From an uncultured Nitrosomonas sp. (GTDB taxonomy: Bacteria; Pseudomonadota; Gammaproteobacteria; Burkholderiales; Nitrosomonadaceae), in the NCBI GenBank assembly GCA_902826055.1, contig CADEDJ010000003.1, positions 1 through 64,000 on the forward strand: a stretch of DNA of 64,000 nucleotides, in the 5' to 3' direction. Made by a program: the position numbers and the translations under genes. A model generated the notes under the pieces. It was not told the origin of the DNA. It did not search any database and worked only from the letters and a program-made list of their open reading frames with translations. Position 1 is the stretch's first letter. Each line of letters starts with the position of its first letter. Below are positions 10,848-30,949 of the stretch, piece by piece.

Positions 10848-11049
10848 TGGAATCCAAAAGCCGCCGTGCGTTTGCAGGCGAGCTGAGCAAATATAAGGTT
10901 TCTTCCAACGATTGATAATCTTTCAGCGATATCAACACAACCGGTGCTTGTCGCTTGCGCGTGATGATAACGGGCAAATGATCATTACAAACCTGTTCCA
11001 TTGTTTTGCCTAAATTGGCACGTGCGACTGTATAACTGATAGCATTCAT
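10810..11049 (-). CDS. YefM/Phd-type antitoxin without a YoeB partner
   Basis: The 79-residue protein begins MNAISYTVARANLGKTMEQV, the DNA-binding start of the Phd/YefM family. It continues with PVIITRKRQAPVVLISLKDY and the LYLLSSPANARRL segment that in YefM precedes the toxin-binding tail. In the usual module yoeB follows at once. Here the overlapping downstream gene is a MazG-like hydrolase, and no RelE/YoeB frame is visible within 400 bp on either side. Either the toxin gene was lost or the hydrolase has taken the partner position. Confidence 0.88.
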   Translation of the reverse strand: MNAISYTVARANLGKTMEQVCNDHLPVIITRKRQAPVVLISLKDYQSLEETLYLLSSPANARRLLDSIAELEAGKGATR

Positions 11050-11134: not shown

Positions 11135-11989
11135 TTAAGGCCGATTCCAAGGTTCTCTCTCTTCTGATATGTCTGCAGCTTCGATTTCACGATCCAAATA
11201 AACGATTTCTTTTTCGATCCACGATCTCACATGCACATCGAAATCTTTACCCAACCAATTACGGAACTGACTACGCATCGCTCTTAGATGCTGACTCCTC
11301 GGCCCATGCCAGCAACCTGAGTGAAAATTACAACGGATACCACTTACAACGCCATCAAGGTTTTGGTAATTCGCAAGTAATGCTCTTGTTAAAGCGCCAC
11401 CCAATTTGTCATCCAACGAACTGGATGCGCAGTGTGCAATCATAGAAGCTCGTTCCTCTGGATCTTGTTCGATCCAATTCAGAATTAACTGGGGTGAAAA
11501 TTCGGCAATCGGTGGCACTACGTGCTTTTCATCAAAACTGCCGAATCCACCTTTCAACCAATTTAATATGTCTACCCGCCATTCTGGAGCACTGCTTAGC
11601 AGATGAGAAGCAACGATCCCCCATGCTTCCGCTGGACTCATTCGACATAGTGATTTAGCCAATGGCTCCACATAACGGTCATAGCTCATGTTGTCCATTT
11701 GTTGCAAAAGCGTGCCAAGCAATGGCAGAGCCTTTGTTGAATCATGCGCTATCAATTTCTTGCAGACGTTATTCCAATGATAAGCGTGCATAGTATCTAA
11801 TCGCTCCCCAAAGTGAATCCGTGCTGCGACAACTCTAAACACAAAATCAGAGTCCACAGACCAAACATTTTTCATCAGAACTTGATCCAGAAGATCAACT
11901 AGGACATTAGCCGAAACCAGGTCTTCACGATTAGAAAGCAGAGTAAAAAGACGAACCAGTCCATCTTGGGATACCGCCTGCCAGCTCAT
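11135..11989 (-). CDS. C-terminal fragment of the split nuclease-STAND protein
   Basis: This 284-residue helical protein has no domain I recognise on its own. Reading the same frame backwards past its ATG gives an open stretch EPDYFRSLCYG that continues directly into the end of the upstream 961-residue frame if one base is added near 12013. The ATG at 11989 is therefore internal to an ancestral protein of about 1,257 residues, and this is the end of its sensor region. Whether it is translated separately is unknown; no good Shine-Dalgarno is seen before the ATG. Confidence 0.65.
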   Translation of the reverse strand: MSWQAVSQDGLVRLFTLLSNREDLVSANVLVDLLDQVLMKNVWSVDSDFVFRVVAARIHFGERLDTMHAYHWNNVCKKLIAHDSTKALPLLGTLLQQMDNMSYDRYVEPLAKSLCRMSPAEAWGIVASHLLSSAPEWRVDILNWLKGGFGSFDEKHVVPPIAEFSPQLILNWIEQDPEERASMIAHCASSSLDDKLGGALTRALLANYQNLDGVVSGIRCNFHSGCWHGPRSQHLRAMRSQFRNWLGKDFDVHVRSWIEKEIVYLDREIEAADISEEREPWNRP

Positions 11990-27899: not shown

Positions 27900-29255
27900 A
27901 TGAAATTCTTGTACTTTTTTATCGCTGTTTCTATTGCCTTGATGGGACATTCCGCACTGCACGCGGCTAACCTCATGAGCGTTTACCATGAAGCCTTAGC
28001 CCAAGATGCGAAATATCGGTCGGCACGCGCTACCTATCAAGCCGCCCAAGAAAAATTGGTACAAGGTAGAGCCGGTTTTCTTCCGAATATCACCCTATCA
28101 GGATCGCGTACCATTCAACAAGTAGATGCAAACAATATTACCAGCACAATTGGCGGAAACAGTATTAGCCTTAATCCTCCGGAAACCACCATTCATGGCC
28201 GCGGTGTGATTATTGCCGCGACTCAGCCATTATTCCGCATGGAAAATATTGTCATTTATCAGCAATCTAAAATTGAAATCAGCCGTGCGGATGCGCAATT
28301 TGTGGTGGCTGCACAAGATTTGATCCTGCGTGTTGCCCAAGCATATTTCGATGTGCTCGATACGCAAATTGACGTCGAAGTTGCCGAAGCGCAAAAAAAA
28401 GCCATCTTGAGTCAACTGGAACAAGCCAAACGCAATTTTGAAGTGGGGGTATCCACCATTGTGGATACCAATGAAGCGCAAGCGCGTTATGATTTAACGA
28501 CTTCCCAAGAAATCGCTGCACAAAATGCACTGGAAATCAGAAAACGCGCCTTGCAAGGAATTATCGATCGATTCCCTGAAAATCTAGTTGGCGCAAAAGA
28601 AATTACTTCTGACTTATCCAAATTGCAATATAGCACCATGGATGAATGGGTTCATATCGCAGAAGAAAAAAATTTCACGCTCAAAATCCAGCAGGCCGCA
28701 TATGAAATAGCGCTACAGGATGTTAAAAAAGCCTGGGCACAGCATTACCCAACAGTGGACCTGGTAGCGCAATATAGCGATCAAACCGGTGTGGGTGGTG
28801 CTATTACCGGTCGTGGAATTGATCTTATTTCAAAATCCATTGGCATCCAGCTCAATGTACCACTATTCCAAGGCTTTGCTGTGCAATCCCGTGTACGCGA
28901 AGCACTGGCACTACAAGAACGCGCATTACACGATCTGGAAAGCACCCGTCGTGATATTGCCTTACAAATCCGTCAGCAGTATCTCAATGTTACGAATGGA
29001 ATTGCACAAGTAAAAGCACTCAAACAAGCATTGAAATCCAGTAAAAGCCAATTGGATTCGACCATCCTTGGACAACAAGTCGGTGTCAGAACCGAAGTTG
29101 ACGTATTAAATGCTCAGCAGCAAATGTATGCTGCCAAACGTGACTTATCCAAAGCGTATCACAGCTATCTAATGTCAAGATTGCGTTTAAGTGCTGAGGC
29201 TGGAGAACTCGATGAAGACACATTAATGCAAATCAATGCAATGCTAACCCAATAG
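27900..29255 (+). CDS. tolC: TolC family outer-membrane channel protein
   Basis: The 451-residue protein has a signal peptide (cleavage near LHAA, residue 23) and begins its mature part with ANLMSVYHEALAQDAKYRSA, typical of TolC of type I secretion and efflux systems. Two internal halves of long helices (QAYFDVLDTQIDVEVAEAQ, LEQAKRNFEVGVSTIVDTNE) form the trans-periplasmic tunnel. Trimer in the outer membrane. No periplasmic adaptor or inner-membrane pump gene is adjacent, so its partner is elsewhere. Confidence 0.92.
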   Translation: MKFLYFFIAVSIALMGHSALHAANLMSVYHEALAQDAKYRSARATYQAAQEKLVQGRAGFLPNITLSGSRTIQQVDANNITSTIGGNSISLNPPETTIHGRGVIIAATQPLFRMENIVIYQQSKIEISRADAQFVVAAQDLILRVAQAYFDVLDTQIDVEVAEAQKKAILSQLEQAKRNFEVGVSTIVDTNEAQARYDLTTSQEIAAQNALEIRKRALQGIIDRFPENLVGAKEITSDLSKLQYSTMDEWVHIAEEKNFTLKIQQAAYEIALQDVKKAWAQHYPTVDLVAQYSDQTGVGGAITGRGIDLISKSIGIQLNVPLFQGFAVQSRVREALALQERALHDLESTRRDIALQIRQQYLNVTNGIAQVKALKQALKSSKSQLDSTILGQQVGVRTEVDVLNAQQQMYAAKRDLSKAYHSYLMSRLRLSAEAGELDEDTLMQINAMLTQ

Positions 29256-29339
29256 CATCCATCGCTCAATTCACAAATATTTATCCCGGCAAGACATCCC
29301 TATCAAGACAATCAATGCCAGTTGCAATCAACCTGACTC

Positions 29340-29376
29340 TAAGTAAATACTTAGACAAATTAAGTAAATACTTAGA
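29340..29376. promoter_or_regulatory. Two identical palindromes 21 bp apart (candidate operator)
   Basis: TAAGTAAATACTTA is a perfect 6-bp dyad with a 2-bp spacer. The 16-mer TAAGTAAATACTTAGA occurs at 29340-29355 and again at 29361-29376. A period of 21 bp (two helical turns) would place two bound dimers on the same DNA face. It lies about 85 bp upstream of the promoter-like elements of the secreted-protein gene. Confidence 0.6.
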
Positions 29377-29460
29377 TGGCTCAGTAAAAACCTAATCAAA
29401 AATCAGCAAAATCCGACTTTACTCATAACGTCTGCAATCCTACCCTGACAAAGGGAGAAA

Positions 29461-29503
29461 TTGACACCAGCATTGATCATAAAATATAGATTAATCAATC
29501 TAT
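29461..29503 (+). promoter_or_regulatory. Sigma70-like promoter with overlapping dyad
   Basis: TTGACA at 29461-29466 and TATAGA at 29485-29490 with 18 bp spacing form a good sigma70-type promoter. The inverted repeat ATAGATT-AATC-AATCTAT (29486-29503) overlaps the -10 and the start region and could be a repressor site. Predicted leader is about 85 bases. Confidence 0.55.
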
Positions 29504-29581
29504 TGGATCATTCCATCCCGTGCAATATTGCAATAAATATTAACAAGAAATTATTTCCTAATAACTGGGGAGGGAAGTGAT

Positions 29582-30949
29582 ATGAAGTCGTTTAATCATA
29601 CTGAATTAGCTACAATTCTGAGCAAAAAATTTATCATTGGTACTGTACTTGCAATACTACTAAATGCTTTAAGCATACTACCGGCAACATCCGCTTTGAC
29701 CAATAAAGGCTTAATACATCCTGTTAATCATTTTCCTACTTGGTTTTCTGATGCCAATGGCATTACTTTACAGTTGTGTTTGGATGGTGATGGTGTCACT
29801 GGATTGTGTTTTTTTGACCCGGTGATACCAGGCAATCCTACTTCTGCAGCAACTGGCTTTGGTGCAGAAGCATTTTGGTGGTCGGCTGATGCTGCTTTGG
29901 ATTTGGCTGGGGGTGGGCGAGCTATTTTAGTACTGGCGTTGGAAGCAGCTTATGGTGCAGGGGATCCTGCACCGAACGATCAGTTTGCTTTTGGGCGTAT
30001 CCGTCTGCGGGTGGACATACCTGCCGATGGGGAATATAAGATTAGACACCCCTTCTTAAATGAAGCTGCCGGTTGTCCCGACGAAGTTTATACTGCAACC
30101 GCCGGGATTAAATCCATCAATGTAACACGCGATATCGGCGGTGGCGCACCGTTTGAAACCATGTTAAGCGGTGAAGTCGGACCTTTCTTGGTATGGGATC
30201 CGGCCGTTCCTCCTACCGCACCAGCAGGATATGTAGGTGATCCCAATATTGACCACGAAGTTGTTGGTGGCCATTGCGGTATCAATTATTTCCGCATCGA
30301 GGGCCCGGCTGATGTAGATTTGGATGGCAATGGCAATAATTTTGTGCAAACCAGTTTATTTTCAGTGCAAGGAAAAATTTTTGACGAGGCAAATACTCCA
30401 CCTGGAATTGAATCTGTTCGGGCAAGCTATTTCCGTTCCACCAATGCAACTGGCACTACTACCTCGCGCATCAATACATGGGTAAAAGCACCACCGCATT
30501 CAAGCGTTAAGCTCAACGATTTGCCTCAAGCCAATCAAAACGGCCCCATGGCATTCGATGGTGAAAGCACATTTTTCAGACGTGCCACGTTAAATGCAGC
30601 AAATAGCAACCCCATGCCCGCACAACTAACGGTTATTGCTACAAACACCAGTGGCATGAGCACCACGCAAGCCATCAATATTATCGATCAAGTGGATATC
30701 CAGTTAGCAACATGGGCAAAAGCAGCGCAAACATTAAGGGTTGTGGCTTTCTCAAGCGACAAAATAAGCTTAAGTTCAGGTGATACTCCCACACTTAATC
30801 TAAAAATAGGAACAAATACTTATTTAATGCCGCAGTCGGGTGTAGCTGGCCGCTATGAAATAATACTGAATGGCATTACCGTACCGCCAGCTCAAGTCAC
30901 CGTGACGTCTTCAAAAGGCGGTACAGCCACCCAGGGGGTAGCGGATTAA
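29582..30949 (+). CDS. Secreted protein of unknown function
   Basis: The 455-residue protein has a long signal peptide (hydrophobic core about 17-35, probable cleavage near TSALT). The mature region is beta-rich, with LCLDGDGVTGLCFFDP (about 65), a FGRIRLRVDIPADGEY block (about 137), a DVDLDGNGNN calcium-loop-like stretch (about 247) and C-terminal domains resembling Ig-like folds. I do not recognise a named family. A strong GGGAGGGAAG Shine-Dalgarno precedes the ATG. Its promoter region carries three dyads, which suggests tight control. Not in an obvious operon. Confidence 0.75.
   Translation: MKSFNHTELATILSKKFIIGTVLAILLNALSILPATSALTNKGLIHPVNHFPTWFSDANGITLQLCLDGDGVTGLCFFDPVIPGNPTSAATGFGAEAFWWSADAALDLAGGGRAILVLALEAAYGAGDPAPNDQFAFGRIRLRVDIPADGEYKIRHPFLNEAAGCPDEVYTATAGIKSINVTRDIGGGAPFETMLSGEVGPFLVWDPAVPPTAPAGYVGDPNIDHEVVGGHCGINYFRIEGPADVDLDGNGNNFVQTSLFSVQGKIFDEANTPPGIESVRASYFRSTNATGTTTSRINTWVKAPPHSSVKLNDLPQANQNGPMAFDGESTFFRRATLNAANSNPMPAQLTVIATNTSGMSTTQAINIIDQVDIQLATWAKAAQTLRVVAFSSDKISLSSGDTPTLNLKIGTNTYLMPQSGVAGRYEIILNGITVPPAQVTVTSSKGGTATQGVAD

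Follow-up and report, generated by a model that had tools for sequence, protein, structure and literature searches.

Dyads and probable promoter upstream of the window gene

The window, by which we mean the whole stretch of 64,000 nucleotides of Nitrosomonas DNA analysed here, contains a gene for a 455-aa protein that is preceded by an array of inverted repeats and by promoter-like hexamers. The features discussed in the following are these:

29340..29355, + strand: distal perfect dyad TAAGTAAATACTTAGA, an extra upstream copy that is present in L025 too
29361..29376, + strand: second perfect dyad, 21 bp 3' of the first, read from the sequence
29381..29394, + strand: third dyad TCAGTAAAAACCTA, decayed, 20 bp further on and part of a match to promoter model R2
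29403..29417, + strand: possible dyad 2, decayed, TCAGCAAAATCCGAC (TAAGCATTTTGCTTA in other species), placed by its position in the 37-promoter alignment
29418..29423, + strand: probable -35 element TTTACT, which recurs at an equal distance in 8 of 16 gene copies
29441..29446, + strand: probable -10 element TACCCT, separated from the -35 element by 17 bp
29461..29490, + strand: TTGACA...TATAGA pair of the sequence-only reading, TATAGA not conserved
29481..29504, no strand assigned: third inverted repeat of the sequence-only reading, one arm broken in L025
29582..30949, + strand: target gene, encoding the 455-aa protein with a signal-peptide-like start and no Pfam family

The sequence-only reading of this DNA had pointed out two identical 16-mers TAAGTAAATACTTAGA, 21 bp apart from start to start and each holding a perfect palindrome. 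Both are indeed present, at 29340-29355 and 29361-29376, and their core TAAGTA-NN-TACTTA is fully palindromic. A third dyad at 29381-29394 had been missed; it matches at 9 of 12 positions, lies in register with the pair and occupies the canonical place of dyad 1, exactly 23 bp 5' of TTTACT. Model R2, which was built from 37 promoters, nine of this genome among them, matches at 29380-29453 with 43.9 bits (E 1.2e-12 in the window), the site having belonged to the R2 training set. The perfect pair are extra copies, spaced by 21 and 20 bp, which the window and L025 have in common. The possible dyad 2 (29403-29417) is located directly 5' of the -35 element, where symmetry is weak about an axis 22.5 bp downstream of dyad 1. 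When up to two mismatches are allowed, the 14-mer matches four times on both strands, at two places only in the window, compared with 0.26 expected matches, and none of 100 shuffles reached as many.

Further downstream, a strong promoter TTGACA/TATAGA with a third inverted repeat across its -10 region had been proposed. The two hexamers are readable (29461-29466 and 29485-29490, spacer 18) and an imperfect repeat does overlap TATAGA (29481-29504), but TATAGA as well as one arm of the repeat are lost in the nearest relative L025. Because of these losses, and because no sigma-70-like pair was found in 29250-29600 at the threshold of the promoter scan, we reject this pair as the promoter and the third repeat as an operator. 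Judged from the sequences compared, the likelier promoter is TTTACT-N17-TACCCT (29418-29446), about 44 bp 5' of the pair named earlier. In 8 of the 16 copies of the window gene that were counted (the window and 15 loci), namely in the window, L025, L026, L027, L028, L032, L037 and L038, TTTACT is preceded, at exactly 23 bp, by a dyad that matches in 8 or more of 12 positions, and is followed after 17 bp by a -10-like hexamer; the dyad-TTTACT pair, with no -10 element required, arose in 7 of 20000 Markov-1 shuffles of the window upstream region. L029 combines a perfect dyad with a different -35 hexamer and TATTAT at the -10 place, and L036 shows a weak partial match only. In L030, L034, L035 and L039 the gene directly follows a SCO1-like gene and is without the site; in the multicopper oxidase-SCO1-window-gene clusters of L034 and L035 no site at E <= 0.1 was found before either gene. 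The sequences of L031 and L033 begin at the gene.

The window protein has its nearest relative at L025 (98% protein identity), and the closest named relative of the gene, with 98% identity, is from Nitrosomonas sp. isolate JAMMSM_AOB_3. The next 14 loci share 63-77% identity (13 labelled Nitrosomonas, one uncultured beta-proteobacterium, two from one strain), and seven further loci at 34-41% identity belong to other phyla or classes. In some other Nitrosomonas, relatives sit behind multicopper oxidase-SCO1 genes; a relative of 34% identity in Candidatus Thiodiazotropha (L042 2100-6160) comes after two SCO1-like genes. A structure model of the window protein (mean pLDDT 69, pTM 0.49) says that the fold would be beta-rich, and no more; the best 50 PDB matches listed, many of them Ig-like or adhesin repeats, have query TM-scores of at most 0.22.

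Dyad-marked promoters in the genome and across Nitrosomonas

The sequence-only reading had proposed a search of the genome for the motif. In the 3.02-Mb genome to which the window belongs (G000; 3,021,283 bases on 116 contigs), the exact dyad TAAGTANNTACTTA occurs eight times, where Markov models (orders 1-4) built on 156 kb of this DNA predict 0.07-0.11 occurrences, and the reversed-pattern control occurs once. Two of the exact sites are in the window, the others at C8:16063, C8:18888, C8:21053, C24:30729, C32:15583 and C101:3753. They fall at seven promoters, three of which belong to multicopper oxidases; the other four are those of the window gene, of an RTX haem peroxidase, of a galactose-oxidase-like protein and of a gene lost beyond a contig end. 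On contig C8 the genes for an RTX animal-haem peroxidase and a multicopper oxidase are divergent, and a SCO1/SenC gene and two more multicopper oxidases are also present; C32 provides a second RTX peroxidase, and C24 the galactose-oxidase-like protein. On C101 the contig ends 208 bp after the site, and the sequence downstream of the site resembles the promoter of the window-gene relative in L029 (genome G005). Downstream of the C8 peroxidase, two almost identical tandem proteins with a PEP-CTERM-like end are encoded (L008 1097-1624 and 1923-2447).

Model R1, built from 22 promoters, added sites outside its training set, at C8:15735 before the first peroxidase (E 8.5e-12), at C33:1050 upstream of a contig-terminal gene for a cadherin-like protein (E 1.3e-9), at C52:5692 before an FG-GAP/RTX protein (E 0.001), and twice on C60 as variant sites before tandem small proteins with signal-like starts (E 2e-4 and 0.004). 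The genes on C60 are near-identical and share the variant promoter CTTA...CCAGGGTTTCCCCAATATACT (10961-11021 and 11605-11665; L164), and paired matches of this type are also seen in some other genomes. No R1 site was found at the multicopper oxidase operon on C23. R2 yielded 11 matches at E <= 0.001, nine of which match by construction. Not all promoters conform equally: downstream of dyad 1, C32 deviates from the layout, and C24 fits R1 poorly (E 0.14) despite its membership in the training set. In this genome the dyad marks about ten promoters, most of which belong to exported oxidases and RTX-type proteins. The earlier suggestion of a dedicated regulator has, as an idea, good support in the rarity of the dyad, the relatedness of the genes and the conserved, fixed distance to the -35-like element, but the site is not specific to one secreted protein.

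The promoters have a common layout in which dyad 1 is followed after 8 bp by the weaker dyad 2 and then by TTTACT-like and TACTAT-like hexamers. Symmetry in the 37-promoter alignment peaks at dyad 1 (3.78 versus a mean of 0.23, sd 0.60). The dyad 2 axis, 22.5 bp downstream, stands about 2 sd above the mean, nearly equalled by axes at 18.5 and 37.0, and dyad 2 takes the form of a clear TAAGC-N5-GCTTA in single promoters of several species. Several species have the site, at a constant geometry, in front of genes that are functionally related, as a shared regulon would have it.

Strong R1 matches (E <= 1e-8) number 39 and are distributed over 13 of 61 Nitrosomonas genomes, our own included; 18 of them were in the training set and 21 outside it, and weaker matches were left out of this count. 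At E <= 0.1, 48 of the 61 genomes have an R1 match and 13 have none. The 21 targets outside the training set comprise eight RTX peroxidases, six multicopper oxidases, four cadherin/RTX proteins, one window gene, a PEP-CTERM protein and a probable outer-membrane protein, classes that were assigned by BLASTP or by N-terminal letters in comparison with members scanned against Pfam. The Pfam scan covered two peroxidases and two clustered multicopper oxidases (own genome and G079), and the remaining peroxidases and multicopper oxidases were placed by BLASTP to references from our own genome or by reading; L137 and L140 count as cadherin/RTX because of N-terminal letters common to the scanned L141 and L163. 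By reading, the orientation of all 21 matches is right. Seven of them (three on C21, one on C12 and one on C3 of G064, two in G079) are near-identical orthologues of training promoters and therefore not independent.

Many of the weaker R1 matches listed cover the second half of the model only and stand before small exported or PEP-CTERM-like proteins; others are found before glmS-like genes and near lon- and hsp20-like genes, names that come from sequence reading. At L148, L155, L157, L166 and L167, matches mostly of the dyad-2 type lie by a gene for a lon-like protease and small genes, several of these loci with an Hsp20-like gene nearby. Two genomes (L145 and L165) have matches that point towards a glmS-like gene, which may connect the sites with the supply of exopolysaccharide.

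Among the genomes sampled, the sites are nearly restricted to the genus. In a sample of 150 genomes of the order, searched with R2 under stricter filters, three had a match at E <= 0.001: our own, a second Nitrosomonas genome and a genome from another genus, where the match was partial. No fewer than three further Nitrosomonas in this sample were without a match. The exact dyad was present in 11 of 61 genomes (our own, 36 others of the genus and 24 of the order), several with single copies lacking the context.

Putative activation through tandem dyads

We consider it probable, on the strength of sequence comparison, that the dyads are activator sites of a Nitrosomonas regulon of exported oxidases and adhesins, arranged in tandem by a weak -35 element. 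As we picture it, a transcription activator, probably dimeric, would bind the dyads and switch on the family of the window protein, large surface proteins of the cadherin/RTX type, RTX animal-haem peroxidases, and multicopper oxidases together with their SCO1 partners. One dimer would occupy dyad 1 (TAAGTANNTACTTA), the centre of which lies 30 bp upstream of the -35 element at about -65, and a second one the weaker dyad 2 (TAAGC-N5-GCTTA where clear), centred two helical turns on at about -43, both positions being counted from a start placed 7 bp downstream of the -10 hexamer. From there, the dyad-2 dimer could touch the poor -35 element (TTTACT) and help RNA polymerase. At the window gene both promoter-proximal dyads have decayed, and two perfect dyads stand upstream of them on the same face of the helix; dimers occupying these would probably load the weak proximal sites co-operatively. 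Protein binding, activation and co-operative loading are all inferred from sequence.

It is unlikely, in our estimate, that the dyads serve instead as operators of a repressor, although palindromic operators are typical of repressors also and the multiplied sites in the window may be read as an arrangement for co-operative repression. In the aligned promoters dyad 1 is situated upstream of the assigned -35 element and not on the -10 element or the start, an assignment that is uncertain in a few promoters (C24, C32, C101), and the -35 elements seem too weak to work unaided. A site position upstream of the -35 element suggests activation; it is not proof. Isolated exact dyads without extended context in G010, G013 (contig C8), G016, G020, G036, G046 and G056 would fit functionless AT-rich palindromes that arose by chance or as a local repeat, but such an origin of the sites is extremely improbable given the genome-wide excess, the fixed spacing, the target set and the near-restriction to the genus; for the set as a whole it is refuted by the counts.

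Candidate regulators and related systems

A single dyad looks like an RcsAB box and the pair looks like the site of a LysR tetramer, neither membership being established. The RcsAB box, which controls capsule and surface genes in enterobacteria, has the consensus TAAG-N6-CTTA. The eight exact TAAGTANNTACTTA sites conform to this inverted repeat of 14 bp. In the flhDC box, RcsB is reported to contact G and A bases in the half-sites TTAGGAA and TCTAAGA (PMC5829831). Nitrosomonas differs in having a second dyad before a fixed -35 element and exported oxidases and RTX proteins as targets. OxyR-type sites consist of two dyads about 22 bp apart that end at the -35 element and have the half-site ATAG. 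The Nitrosomonas sites share with those of OxyR-type LysR tetramers the centre spacing of 22.5 bp, the distal and proximal dyad and peroxidases as targets, whereas the half-site is TAAG and not ATAG. The CRP/FNR consensus sequences TTGAT-N4-ATCAA and TGTGA-N6-TCACA are not represented by the dyad, which reads TAAGTANNTACTTA.

Two families of regulators, LysR and GerE, were searched for in the genome. The GerE search gave 14 matches, 12 of them over the cut-off, and it is conceivable, if rather doubtful, that a NarL/LuxR-type protein acts on the TAAG-N6-CTTA box in the way RcsB does. Candidates are a double-receiver orphan (G000:C18:552-1733) and tandem orphans at G000:C23, which adjoin a gene with Pfam multicopper oxidase domains. 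Orthologs of the C18 and C23 proteins are each present in 12 of the 13 genomes with strong sites; among the 13 genomes without an R1 match, the C23 protein (E 1e-42) occurs in none and the C18 protein (E 1e-110, hand count) in one. Over all 61 genomes the C23 protein is found in 29, the C18 protein in 30 at E <= 1e-110 (33 at the default threshold), and R1 scores are higher where the C23 protein is present (Mann-Whitney p 9e-8, phylogeny ignored). The two profiles are nearly alike, however, and look clade-wise, so that co-occurrence is weak evidence and does not decide the matter. G005 (91% complete) has strong sites and neither gene. A perfect TAAGCATTTTGCTTA 85 bp before the C18 ortholog of G020 (L218 5942-5956) speaks for the double-receiver protein, but among the 27 orthologs that could be evaluated out of 30 (two were missed and the start of one was read wrongly) it was the single one with an upstream dyad; autoregulation of the gene was rejected on that account, and the G020 dyad counts as a lead and not as evidence. 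R1 detected no site around the C18 gene (8 loci, E <= 10) or around the C23 genes (12 loci).

The multicopper oxidase gene beside the C23 genes, too, is without an R1 site and has a block of its own, ACAAATGACATCTATTT and variants, in 7 of 8 loci, with a full dyad GACAAAT-N7-ATTTGTC in 2 of the 8 promoters. This block may be the likelier target of the C23 proteins. In the 8 loci listed (G000:C23:38814-44491, i.e. L205, and L206-L209, L211, L213 and L214), one or two orphan LuxR-type genes come first, followed by the gene with multicopper oxidase domains, which Pfam assigned in our own genome, and a second gene for about 920 aa. When two of the 14 GerE proteins were scanned against NCBIfam, the best models were MctR and NarL, below cut-off, and no RcsB model was among the matches of these two.

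A regulator of the LysR type, with dyad 1 as recognition site near -65 and dyad 2 as activation site near -43, is more improbable still. LysR-type regulators usually have a strong distal and a weak proximal site, and their tetramers tolerate a difference of one base in arm spacing. The spacing of 22.5 bp and the strong-distal/weak-proximal pair fit this layout, as does the difference of one base in spacing between the arms of the dyads. By direct reading, on the other hand, both dyads lack the T-N11-A core that is the rule for a LysR recognition dyad, and no LysR gene was noted beside the targets among the loci listed. The genome contains four LysR-type HTH matches, the best NCBIfam models of which are CysB (over cut-off), CbbR, MetR and YafC (below); OxyR was the best model of none of the four. 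A fifth LysR-like gene, G000:C86:1-753, is cut at the contig start and was therefore missed by the HTH search. The orphan LysR L172, the sole LysR protein profiled, correlates weakly with the sites over all 61 genomes (p 4e-4); it was set aside as a candidate, having no close ortholog in 4 of the 13 strong-site genomes, two of them 100% complete.

Significance of the proposed regulon

Tandem palindromic activator sites are known from other regulons, and the operator is of a familiar kind. In the open-access literature no paper was found for the dyad sequence in three spellings or for Nitrosomonas together with a LuxR regulator and a palindrome, and among the matches listed for Nitrosomonas multicopper oxidases, haem peroxidases, RTX proteins and binding motifs, nothing concerned the regulon. 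Its description would unite exported oxidases that are poorly understood, from a genus important among ammonia oxidisers, in one regulon whose operator is defined and open to testing, and give the unnamed family of the 455-aa window protein a functional neighbourhood. The operator could furthermore be used as a bait sequence for fishing out the regulator and the signal.

The exported oxidases suggest possible functions, for example in the oxidation of metals or halides or in biofilm defence. It would be a bold guess, and one we hold unlikely to be right in full, that in a genus-specific circuit the double-receiver orphan LuxR-type regulator turns on giant adhesins and an oxidant arsenal of RTX haem peroxidases, multicopper oxidases with SCO1 and the galactose-oxidase-like enzyme, by which metals, halides or the molecules of competitors are oxidised in the biofilm on demand. 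MnxR, a proposed regulator of Pseudomonas putida GB-1, is sigma-54 dependent, whereas the Nitrosomonas promoter reads sigma-70-like, and nothing in the sequences analysed here points to manganese oxidation. The likeness to strain GB-1 is that the same organism has both multicopper oxidases and a haem peroxidase, under specific regulators; in GB-1 the Mn(II) oxidases are MnxG, McoA and MopA and the proposed regulators MnxS1/S2 and MnxR (PMC11930936). The iox cluster of the iodide-oxidising Iodidimonas consists of the multicopper oxidase IoxA, the SCO1/SenC proteins IoxB/D/F and proteins of unknown function (PMC9415286). The Nitrosomonas targets resemble it in combining multicopper oxidases, SCO1/SenC and proteins of unknown function, a likeness by gene content.
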